From Thermococci archaeon (GTDB taxonomy: Archaea; Hadarchaeota; B88-G9): a stretch of DNA of 8,131 bases. The DNA is taken from positions 1-8,131 of the forward strand of contig QMUK01000060.1 of assembly GCA_003660555.1 (NCBI GenBank). The letters are read 5' to 3'. How positions within the stretch are numbered: the first letter of the stretch is position 1; every line of letters begins with the position of its first letter. The position numbers and the translations under genes were made by a program. A model generated the notes under the pieces. The model did not search any database and was not told where the DNA came from. It saw only the letters and a list, made by a program, of their open reading frames with translations. Below, in pieces: positions 3,001 to 6,333 of the stretch.

Positions 3001-4197
3001 TCAATCACCTAGAGATACTATCTTAACCTTCGTGGGTTTAGTGGTTATCGGCCCGAGCTTCATCCCTATTAGATACTCTATGCCCTTCTCTCCTGCTATG
3101 TTCAGGAGCCTTTGGGATATCACTCCATCAAATATCACGGCGTGAATTCCGTTCGAATTGGATAGGGCCTCTACTAACTCATCTATGGCCAGTTTTCTCA
3201 CCAATTGGAAGTTCTTGTCCAATAAATAAGCGCTTCTCGTATTAGGAACTTTATCTACGTACTCCTTAAGCTGATCAGGAACTTCTCTTAGTTCAATTGC
3301 CACCTTCTTCGATGGTTTCTCAACTCTTCTGGCTTTCCTCTCTTCCTCCTCCAATTTCTTTGGCTTCTTTCTCTCTAGTTCAGTTACTGCCTGCTCAGCT
3401 GGTATTGCGTTCCTAAGAGCTTTGACTATCTCTTTGTGGGTTAGCTCCTCAACTTCCTTGTTCTCAGGTGCTCTAGCGACGTAATCAACCTCTGCAACTT
3501 GGAGCAATTCCTTTAGAATCAGCTCCCCTCCTCGATCTCCGTCCACGAAGGCGGTGACTGTTTTCCTCTTACTCAAGTCTATTATGGTTTGAGGTACGTT
3601 AGTCCCCTCAACAGCTATGGCATTTCTTATCCCGTGTTTCAAGAGGTTCAGAACGTCTGCTCTCCCCTCCACCACTATTATCTCATCACTTTCCTCTACA
3701 GCTGGACCCGCAGGCAACTTCTCTGGACCATAGCTCGTTATTTCTCCCATTCTCATTTCCTTGGTTATCTCTTCTATTAGTTCTTGACTCTCAGGCTCTG
3801 ATTCCTCTATCATTTTTATGAGTTCTATGGCTCTTTCCTTTATCTTCCTCCTTTTCACGGCTCTAACGTCCTCTATTTTTAGAACCTTTATTTTCGCCTC
3901 ACATGGCCCAACTCTGTCTATTGTCTCCAATGCAGCGGCTATCAGGGCAGTGTCCACTTTGTCCATGCTGGAGGGAATAGTTATCTTGCCCTTTGATTTT
4001 CCTCCCTTGGAGGATATCTCGACGTTTATTCTTCCAATCCTTCCAGTCTTCTGTAGCTCTCTCAAATCGAGATCTCTTCCGAGTAATCCTTCTGTCTGAC
4101 CAAATATGGCTCCAACAACATCTGGTCTTTCAACAACACCATTAGCTTCTATTTCGGCATGAACTATATATTTAGTGGTGCCTAAATCCTCTTTCAA
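3001..4197 (-). CDS. dnaG: Archaeal DnaG primase / exosome-associated protein
   Basis: The family signature is clear. The N-terminal domain has TTKYIVHAEIEANGVVERPD, VGAIFGQTEGLLG and GRIGRI. A central Toprim domain follows (about residues 170-245 from the TTG start), with metal-binding E177 (VVEGRADVL) and D219/D221 (FVDGDRGG), and then VARAPENKEVEELT. A long charged linker (about 273-299) leads to a C-terminal domain. In archaea this protein binds the RNA exosome as a poly(A)-preferring adaptor and has reported primase activity. I prefer the TTG at 4197 over an ATG at 4212: GGAGGTGATT at 4210-4201 is a near-perfect ribosome site for TTG but lies after that ATG. The TTG start (MKEDLGTTKYIVHA) also fits family N-termini better. 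The gap stop lies five bases upstream. Length of 398 residues is normal. Confidence 0.95.
   Translation of the reverse strand: MKEDLGTTKYIVHAEIEANGVVERPDVVGAIFGQTEGLLGRDLDLRELQKTGRIGRINVEISSKGGKSKGKITIPSSMDKVDTALIAAALETIDRVGPCEAKIKVLKIEDVRAVKRRKIKERAIELIKMIEESEPESQELIEEITKEMRMGEITSYGPEKLPAGPAVEESDEIIVVEGRADVLNLLKHGIRNAIAVEGTNVPQTIIDLSKRKTVTAFVDGDRGGELILKELLQVAEVDYVARAPENKEVEELTHKEIVKALRNAIPAEQAVTELERKKPKKLEEEERKARRVEKPSKKVAIELREVPDQLKEYVDKVPNTRSAYLLDKNFQLVRKLAIDELVEALSNSNGIHAVIFDGVISQRLLNIAGEKGIEYLIGMKLGPITTKPTKVKIVSLGD
3003..3009 (-). promoter_or_regulatory. Shine-Dalgarno site overlapping the dnaG stop
   Basis: GGTGATT overlaps the last codons and TGA stop of dnaG and is five bases before TTG at 2999. 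This is the same arrangement as at the gap/dnaG junction and favours the TTG start for the downstream gene over GTG at 3008. Confidence 0.65.
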
Positions 4198-4200
4198 GAG

Positions 4201-4210
4201 AATCACCTCC
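4201..4210 (-). promoter_or_regulatory. Shine-Dalgarno site that sets the dnaG start at TTG
   Basis: GGAGGTGATT on the - strand matches the full anti-Shine-Dalgarno sequence of archaeal 16S rRNA. It overlaps the gap stop codon (TGA, 4205-4203) and lies just before TTG at 4197. It cannot serve the ATG at 4212, which it follows. Termination of gap and initiation of dnaG would thus happen at one site. Confidence 0.8.
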
Positions 4211-5207
4211 ATATGCCAAGAGACTTATCTGTGGTTTCTATACTCTCGTCTTTATCTGCTAAATCGAACATAGCTCTTACTGCGTCCACATTCTCAGGTA
4301 CTACATCTGCCTCCTGATGAACTGCCTGCATGTAATAGACTTCTCTTCCTTCTACAGATACTGAGTCCTCGAAAACTACTATCTCGTATATGTCACCTCT
4401 CTTTCTCCCCAAATCCCTGAAGTACTCTATTAAGGAGGCTGTGGACTTCATTCCCATATCGGATGAGACTAGTATTATTCTAGGAGCGTCTTCTAGATGA
4501 GAAATTATATCATCTCTTTTGACCTCTTCGTTCATTTCCAACATTACGGTGTGGAGATGCATTATCGTAGTTGGGACCTTGACTGCCATCGTAACTATGT
4601 CTAGGTCTTTGAGGACTGTCCTGACATCTGGTCCGTGATGAGACGGTGTCCTAGGAGGATCTGGTACTATGGCATTTATTGGACCCTTTCTATGCTCTTT
4701 GGGATCTGCTGCCCTTCTTATCAGTGTGACTCTAGCTTTCTTGATTCCCAGGGGTTGAAGTGATCCGAGAGTCCTAGCTAGCCCCGTGGTATTACAAGAG
4801 ACTACTCTGACGAAGTCCTTATCTATTGCTTCCTCGTAGTTGCACTGAGCTACGAAAGAGACTTGAGCTACCTCTGCCTTCTCTCCTCCTTGGAATATTG
4901 CCTTTACTCCTAATTTCTCGTACAATTCCTCCTTGTTTCTCATTCCTTGTCCCTCTGGGGTACAATCTATCACCAAATCTGAATTCTCTACCATGTCCTC
5001 TATGCTTCCCTCTACTGAGATTCCTCTGTCTTCGAATTCTCTCTCTTTTCCCCTAGGAACGTATAATCCGAATTCTTGGGCCATTCTCGAGAAGTAATCT
5101 GGAGTTGTCTTAGAGACTCCCACTAAGGTCATGTCCCTCTGCTTAGATATTGCGTCTGCCACTCTCTTTCCTATGGTACCGAATCCGTTTACAGACACCT
5201 TAACCAA
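4203..5207 (-). CDS. gap: Glyceraldehyde-3-phosphate dehydrogenase, archaeal type II
   Basis: A 334-residue cytosolic glycolytic/gluconeogenic enzyme that interconverts glyceraldehyde-3-phosphate and 1,3-bisphosphoglycerate with NAD(P). It shows the N-terminal Rossmann motif VSVNGFGTIGKRVADA (residues 4-19), DLVIDCTPEG (77-86), the catalytic cysteine C138 in VVSCNTTGLART, and RRAADPKEHRKGPINAI (164-180) of the archaeal family. Length is normal for this family. The start is TTG at 5207, with a moderate GGTGGTG ribosome site seven to eight bases upstream. The small Toprim gene ends 15 bases upstream and dnaG begins five bases after the stop. Archaeal gap is often found with phosphoglycerate kinase; here it sits between two Toprim-domain genes instead. 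Confidence 0.96.
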   Translation of the reverse strand: MVKVSVNGFGTIGKRVADAISKQRDMTLVGVSKTTPDYFSRMAQEFGLYVPRGKEREFEDRGISVEGSIEDMVENSDLVIDCTPEGQGMRNKEELYEKLGVKAIFQGGEKAEVAQVSFVAQCNYEEAIDKDFVRVVSCNTTGLARTLGSLQPLGIKKARVTLIRRAADPKEHRKGPINAIVPDPPRTPSHHGPDVRTVLKDLDIVTMAVKVPTTIMHLHTVMLEMNEEVKRDDIISHLEDAPRIILVSSDMGMKSTASLIEYFRDLGRKRGDIYEIVVFEDSVSVEGREVYYMQAVHQEADVVPENVDAVRAMFDLADKDESIETTDKSLGIWR

Positions 5208-5222
5208 TTTAGAGCACCACCA

Positions 5223-5630
5223 TCATATTATATTCATTCTCTCCTCTAATTTCCTAACGAATTGGCTCATGTCCTCTATTCTGGTGAAGTCCTTCTTGAA
5301 TCTCAACACCTTTTCCCTTATTTCTCTATGTGGATTCCCTCCTAGTTCCTCTATGTGTCTAGATATTTCTTTAGCAATTTCCTCCCCCTTCTCATCCAAG
5401 TCCGTGAGTACCAATGCTTCTCTTCCCAGTAGGAAGGCTCTCTCTGCTATTTCCCAAGGAGGTCTACTCGATGCTGCTATGAAGTTTCCGCTAATACCAA
5501 GTTCTCTCAAGCTCTCTATGTCTCTTTTCCCCTCAACTATCAATGGGAGGCCTGAGGAGGCCATCCCACTTATGAGATTTATCAACTCCTTTATCTCGAT
5601 GTATTTCTCTAAAGCCTCGATCCTTCTCAT
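5223..5630 (-). CDS. Small Toprim-domain protein (UPF0292 / RNase M5-like)
   Basis: The 135-residue product is little more than a Toprim domain. It has E33 in LIVEGKRDIESLRELGISG, D77 and D79 in ALVLTDLDEKGEEI, and a basic tail (REIREKVLRFKKDFTRIEDMSQF). This is the archaeal small primase-like family related to the catalytic core of bacterial RNase M5, the 5S rRNA maturase; the archaeal function is not established. I start at ATG 5630 because GAGAGGA lies about eight bases upstream. The frame stays open to 6095, but that extension crosses the structured RNA, the promoter and the antisense of OsmC, so it is not coding. It is first in the protein operon and directly follows the structured RNA, with no terminator between them. 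That makes an RNA-processing role attractive but unproven. Confidence 0.85.
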   Translation of the reverse strand: MRRIEALEKYIEIKELINLISGMASSGLPLIVEGKRDIESLRELGISGNFIAASSRPPWEIAERAFLLGREALVLTDLDEKGEEIAKEISRHIEELGGNPHREIREKVLRFKKDFTRIEDMSQFVRKLEERMNII

Positions 5631-5639
5631 GATCTTGTC

Positions 5640-5880
5640 CTCTCTAAGTGATTGGGAGCGATGTCGCCCGACCCTAACACCTCTCTTCATCGAAGAGGTT
5701 ATCCTCCCTCTGGAGGCTGACCCGGGTGGGCTGTCCTGCGTTAGGGTTGTCCTCCCGTCATAGCTAGGCTCTCTCCACACTCCGGGAGGGACCCAATAAC
5801 GCAGGGGCTCATGTACCCTCTCCCTTGCCCCAGAGTTCACTGTTTCTCTCCGGTCCTCGAGGAGAGGGGAGTTCACAGCC
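5640..5880 (-). ncRNA. Unclassified highly structured RNA or long 5' leader
   Basis: A TATA box at 5901-5910 predicts transcription start at about 5880, exactly where a GC-rich, strongly folding segment begins. Visible helices are: CTCTCC (5866-5861) with GGAGAG (5851-5846); a long hairpin of CCTGCGTTA (5805-5797) with TAACGCAGG (5743-5735), continued by GGGT/ACCC across a two-base bulge and by CCTCCCG (5789-5783) with CGGGAGG (5757-5751), 20 bp in all; GCCCACCC (5731-5724) with GGGTCGGGC (5674-5666), one bulged base, enclosing hairpins at 5716-5703 and 5699-5679. It lacks the RNase P GAGGAAAGTCC core and the SRP helix 8 GGAA/AGCAG motif. It runs without a terminator into the Toprim gene, so it may be a stable RNA processed from the operon transcript or a regulatory leader. 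Confidence 0.6.
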
Positions 5881-5900
5881 TTTTCAGATTTCTCTAGAGG

Positions 5901-5911
5901 AATATAAAAAT
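5901..5911. promoter_or_regulatory. Shared bidirectional TATA element
   Basis: The A/T-rich core reads ATATAAAAAT on + and ATTTTTATAT on -, a good TATA box in both directions. On the - strand it is preceded by an A-rich BRE-like AAAAAG and predicts transcription start at about 5880, the 5' edge of the structured RNA. On + it predicts start near 5930, ten bases before the OsmC ATG with its GGGGTG ribosome site. One site may therefore serve the Toprim-gap-dnaG operon and osmC. Confidence 0.6.
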
Positions 5912-5940
5912 CTTTTTCTAGTAGGAACTTGGGGTGCGAC

Positions 5941-6333
5941 ATGAAGGTGATTTGGAGGGGAAGTGATAAGTACTCCCTACTTATTGACGAAGATGAGAAG
6001 ATACTGGAGTTCTCAGAGTCTAACAATAGAATAACTCCAATGAAGCTATTGTTACTCAGTGTAGCTAGTTGCACAGCCATGGACGTAGTACACATACTGA
6101 AGAAAATGAAGGAGGATGTAAAGGAAGTTCAGGTGGAAATAGATGGAAAAAGGAGAGAGGAATATCCCAGAATATACGAAAAAATAGAAATTAGGTACAG
6201 GATAAGAGGGGACGTAAACGAGGAGCGCGCGAGGAGAGCTGTAGAACTCAGTTTGAGTAAATATTGTTCCGCCTCTAATCAAGTCTCTTCCGGGGGTGCT
6301 CTAATATCTTGGTCACTGGAAATTCAGGAGTAG
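5941..6333 (+). CDS. OsmC/Ohr-family protein, YhfA-like subgroup
   Basis: The 130-residue protein carries both conserved cysteines of the OsmC family: C44 in LLSVASCTAMDVVHILKKM and C109 in LSLSKYCSASNQVS. These pair as the thiol active site in peroxide-reducing family members. The CTAMDVV and KYCS motifs match the YhfA-like (COG1765) branch, whose substrate is less certain than that of Ohr or OsmC proper. Start at ATG 5941 follows GGGGTG; an in-frame TTG at 5929 would overlap that ribosome site and is rejected. It shares the TATA element with the divergent operon. Its last 21 bases overlap the end of the convergent DUF92 gene. It is a cytosolic protein of normal family length. Confidence 0.92.
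   Translation: MKVIWRGSDKYSLLIDEDEKILEFSESNNRITPMKLLLLSVASCTAMDVVHILKKMKEDVKEVQVEIDGKRREEYPRIYEKIEIRYRIRGDVNEERARRAVELSLSKYCSASNQVSSGGALISWSLEIQE

Follow-up and report, generated by a model that had tools for sequence, protein, structure and literature searches.

Question raised by the locus

On the minus strand of an 8,131-nt contig, an intergenic stretch lies between a divergent OsmC gene and the start codon of a Toprim-domain gene, which is followed downstream by genes for GAPDH-II and DnaG. The initial annotation had proposed an unclassified structured RNA here, either a new archaeal stable RNA or a long regulatory leader of the Toprim-gap-dnaG operon, and we sought to establish what this stretch encodes. 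The window, as we call the contig, which was analysed at its whole length, belongs to a 1.3-Mb archaeal MAG from deep Hadarchaeota, the only genome of its family among the genomes compared.

The locus encodes a divergent HgcG/Pab40 RNA

The minus strand from 5882 to 5650 folds at -99.4 kcal/mol, against -86.9 kcal/mol for dinucleotide shuffles (z -2.5), and two of the 200 shuffles match it, so that the fold energy alone is moderate evidence for structure. Much stronger evidence came from Infernal. An Rfam search, which had been suggested as a check on the proposed RNA, returned RF00064 (HgcG, Pab40) at 5923-5657 (-) with 62.9 bits and an E-value of 1.7e-15, the match spanning the entire model (positions 1-276 of 276). 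The structure noted at 5640-5880 is thereby confirmed. Within the whole host genome the window copy is the sole RF00064 match at E ≤ 0.001, other Rfam families matched the window at chance level only, and no tRNA or tmRNA was found in it. HgcG goes by the name of Pab40 in P. abyssi and of Pf7 in P. furiosus and belongs to the H/ACA guide RNAs, with three motifs (PMC4652768, PMC2584109); the Pab40 transcript of P. abyssi is 234 nt long (382,389-622; PMC4652768).

The full-length match lies below the curated gathering cut-off of RF00064 (77 bits), which is a curation threshold and no biological feature. With a score just under it, the RNA would be missed by standard annotation. The cut-off was passed in only 3 of the 61 genomes searched, all three outside the phylum. 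To judge by the weak matches found here, HgcG may be spread widely over archaea and hidden by the Rfam cut-off; a lower threshold, or the addition of these sequences to the family, would annotate many missed copies.

By its sequence, the window RNA appears clearly to be a divergent member of the known HgcG/Pab40 family and no new RNA class, so that the proposal of a stable RNA is well supported while the label "unclassified" falls away. We consider it very probable that the window carries the gene of a three-motif H/ACA RNA of the HgcG/Pab40 type, predicted to guide pseudouridylation of 23S rRNA. Its features are collected in Table 1. The putative start near 5880, proposed earlier from the promoter, is consistent with the position of the TATA-like box.

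Table 1. Features of the window around the HgcG/Pab40-type RNA
Feature	Position	Strand	Elements	Basis
HgcG/Pab40-type RNA, three H/ACA motifs	5660..5871 (best bounds, about); putative start near 5880	-		RF00064 match
H/ACA motif 1	5810..5871	-	lower stem 5868-5861/5823-5816 (8 bp); upper stem 5853-5847/5836-5830; 5' guide UCGAGGA 5860-5854; 3' guide GGCAAG 5829-5824	model R2, from other archaea only, E 2.4e-8
H/ACA motif 2	5732..5805	-	lower stem CCUGCGUUA/UAACGCAGG, 5805-5797/5743-5735 (9 bp); upper stem 5789-5783/5757-5751; 5' guide UUGGGUC 5796-5790; 3' guide ACAACCC 5750-5744	sequence and fold; GGUC/AACCC arms conserved in relatives
H/ACA motif 3	5660..5733	-	interrupted lower stem 5731-5724/5674-5666; GAUGA 5691-5687; 5' guide GGGUCAG 5723-5717; 3' guide UGUUA 5679-5675	model R1, from other archaea only, E 1e-11
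TATA-like promoter element TTTATATT	5901..5908	-	precedes the putative start (near 5880) by about 25 nt	sequence; putative function
Toprim-domain gene, PRK04017 type	5223..5630	-	start codon at 5630, about 30 nt past the last ACA box of the RNA	Pfam Toprim E 3.3e-5; NCBIfam PRK04017
OsmC gene	5941-6333	+		divergent neighbour

Three H/ACA motifs and their conservation

All three motifs stand in order in the sequence, each followed by an ACA box, which for motif 1 sits inside UACA after 5816. GA...UGA signatures, candidate K-turns or K-loops for L7Ae, were seen in every motif: as a GA...UGA loop on the upper stem of motif 1, a GAG...AUGA loop on that of motif 2, and GAUGA in motif 3, the upper stem of which is imperfect, with a bulged A. 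The "interrupted 20-bp hairpin" and the "closed multibranch domain" of the initial annotation correspond to these H/ACA motifs.

Two models, R1 for motif 3 and R2 for motif 1, were built from other archaea only, and each gave one match in the window, at the expected place. The stems covaried over 20-24 sequences; the alignments (24 and 20 distinct sequences) were fitted to the models, so that the counts lean towards structure. Changes on both sides occurred in 15 of 18 pairs of the motif 3 stems and 9 of 12 pairs of the motif 1 stems, in the latter with 97.8% of cells paired. For both motifs covariation exceeded all or nearly all shuffles and all slid controls, and in a MAFFT alignment of motif 1 that was not fitted to the model, 9 of 13 pairs carried a compensatory change.

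Predicted targets of motifs 1 and 3

Each pocket was scored against every U in the 16S and 23S rRNA of the host itself (n = 671). For motif 1 the top target was 23S U2601 in GGCUUGC[UA]CCUCGAUG (rank 1 of 671, score 29, next 22), and for motif 3 it was 23S U2031 in GGUAAC[UA]UGACCC (rank 1 of 671, score 25, next 20). By alignment, U2601 corresponds to E. coli 2496 in the peptidyl transferase region and U2031 to E. coli 1915 in the loop of helix 69. These are the sites of the known family: the position matching U2601 (P. abyssi U2588, T. kodakarensis U2592) is assigned to Pab40.1, and the one matching U2031, P. abyssi 2016, equal to H. volcanii 1956 and E. coli 1915, to Pab40.3 (PMC6138745, PMC4652768, PMC2584109). 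A strict pocket-agnostic scan again placed U2601 first, of 452, but missed U2031 owing to the imperfect upper stem of motif 3. Weak homologues without support in the strict scan (L009, G001, G004 and G009) were left out of the target evidence.

The guides also change together with the rRNA. For motif 3, guide GGGUCA faces rRNA UGACCC (window, G034), GGGUUA faces UAACCC (G032, G054, G048, G019), and CCGUCA faces UGACGG (G040); for motif 1, UCGAGG faces CCUCGA (window, G059), and GCGAGG faces CCUCGC (G032, G054). In this guide-target table, which is small, draws on related species and uses guides picked by eye, Watson-Crick guide-rRNA pairs numbered 47/48 and 33/36, with partner permutation P of about 0.004 and 0.005. 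Such co-change provides evidence for the targets at the level of sequence, without experiments. The most likely function of the RNA would be to guide pseudouridylation of 23S uridines in the peptidyl transferase region and in helix 69, and a three-motif guide with this predicted aim is now placed in Hadarchaeota.

Two observations concern the rRNA around helix 69 in other genomes. The best pocket of L009, a weak homologue in G052, fits 23S U2102 of that genome, a few bases 3' of the uridine in the loop of helix 69. The 23S rRNA genes of other Hadarchaeota (L051, L052, L054 and L055) measure 3.6-3.9 kb, compared with 3.05 kb in the window's genome, and the 23S rRNA of G019 (L052, 3584-4408) carries an insertion after helix 69; a LAGLIDADG-type ORF within this insertion suggests that an rRNA intron adjoins the guide's target.

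Candidate target of motif 2

The arms GGUC and AACCC of motif 2 are conserved in relatives and fit GGGUU[UA]GACC at U2691 (E. coli 2586), which is pseudouridine 2621 in Haloarcula and has been proposed for motif II (PMC2584109). Among the 671 U, U2660 and U2659 took ranks 1 and 2 and U2691, predicted from the relatives, rank 5. U2660 sits in the self-complementary A-loop hairpin; this strong match was set aside because pocket (GGGU/ACCC) and rRNA hairpin are both self-complementary and can match by themselves. P. abyssi position 1932 is listed for Pab40.2 (PMC4652768), and no match of motif 2 to its equivalent was seen in the host rRNA. Motif 2 probably guides U2691, which we regard as a candidate site.

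Proposed mechanism

In the proposed mechanism each motif would bind Cbf5, Nop10, Gar1 and L7Ae, its two-armed pocket would base-pair with 23S rRNA on either side of one uridine, and Cbf5 would turn this pocket uridine into pseudouridine. From the pairing, motif 1 is predicted to guide U2601 and motif 3 U2031. Cbf5, L7Ae and Nop10 were found in the host genome above curated cut-offs, and Gar1 as a weak match of 19.3 bits, below its cut-off.

Gene neighbourhood and alternative readings

The closeness of the RNA to the Toprim start codon, without an evident terminator in between, and the recurrence of the neighbourhood could be read as signs of a cis-acting 5' UTR leader, a riboswitch or attenuator, that regulates the Toprim-gap-dnaG operon. 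The arrangement HgcG-(DUF167)-Toprim-dnaG was found in several archaeal lineages (loci L012, L007, L092-L094, L111 and L085 besides the window): in the window, G049 and G035, and also in Methanosarcinales/Methanocellales MAGs, another archaeon and a Baldrarchaeota MAG; the Methanosarcinales/Methanocellales and Baldrarchaeota set was fetched by dnaG and so yields no frequency of the arrangement. Its details vary: the window version (3001-5880) is without DUF167 and has a type II GAPDH gene inserted between Toprim and dnaG, the Baldrarchaeota MAG has another gene inside, and in G040 HgcG adjoins dnaG, Toprim not being detected there. In other Hadarchaeota families, however, the same RNA lies just downstream of a gene that we take from its sequence to be pheT, not before Toprim, and when the window proteins were searched by tblastn, neither Toprim nor dnaG turned up in the 1.5-kb flanks of L002-L004. 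These other contexts argue against a Toprim-specific leader, as do the conserved single-stranded elements, which match 23S rRNA as guide pockets and change with it. The regulatory leader suggested earlier is thus disfavoured, and we hold it very unlikely; co-transcription with Toprim without a regulatory role is possible. That the recurring neighbourhood reflects a functional link of HgcG to Toprim/DnaG, combined with a motif 2 that directs pseudouridylation within the A-loop hairpin, at E. coli 2554/2555, and not at 2586, seems unlikely. RNA processing via the DnaG-associated exosome is an example of such a link, and this conserved gene neighbourhood offers a testable lead.

K-turns, hairpins and ACA boxes are common to H/ACA RNAs, and the score is below the family cut-off, so a different guide RNA could in principle match HgcG through such generic features; some weak matches elsewhere, L016 (in G032) and L009, indeed resemble other H/ACA RNAs. 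Against this, the three motifs stand in order in the window and two pockets independently pick the Pab40.1 and Pab40.3 sites among 671 U, and a different guide is likewise very unlikely. The Toprim reading frame is open across the whole RNA and beyond (5223-6095, -), and gene finders may wrongly stretch the protein over it. That this 290-aa frame from 6095 to 5223 encodes an N-terminally extended Toprim protein is nevertheless extremely improbable, as the protein families match only downstream of 5663, and the stretch matches an RNA family, its changes keeping base pairs and guide pairing.

Comparison with known guide RNAs

The HgcG/Pab40-type RNA of the window shares with HgcG/Pab40/Pf7 (RF00064) the three H/ACA motifs in order, the full-length covariance match, the ACA boxes and GA/UGA loops, and the pockets for the motif 1 and motif 3 sites. 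It differs in a sequence that scores below the Rfam cut-off, in the imperfect upper stem of motif 3, and in motif 2, with pocket arms of 7 nt against a 3' guide of 23 nt in Pab40.2 (PMC4652768). Afu-4.3 of Archaeoglobus Afu-4 and HP2 of Haloferax volcanii also target the uridine predicted for motif 3 (E. coli 1915, in helix 69), and H. volcanii HP1 is the relative of motif II. In eukaryotes, the H/ACA snoRNAs human U19 and yeast snR191 guide pseudouridines at helix 69, the equivalents of 1915/1917 (PMC2584109), a likeness in function.
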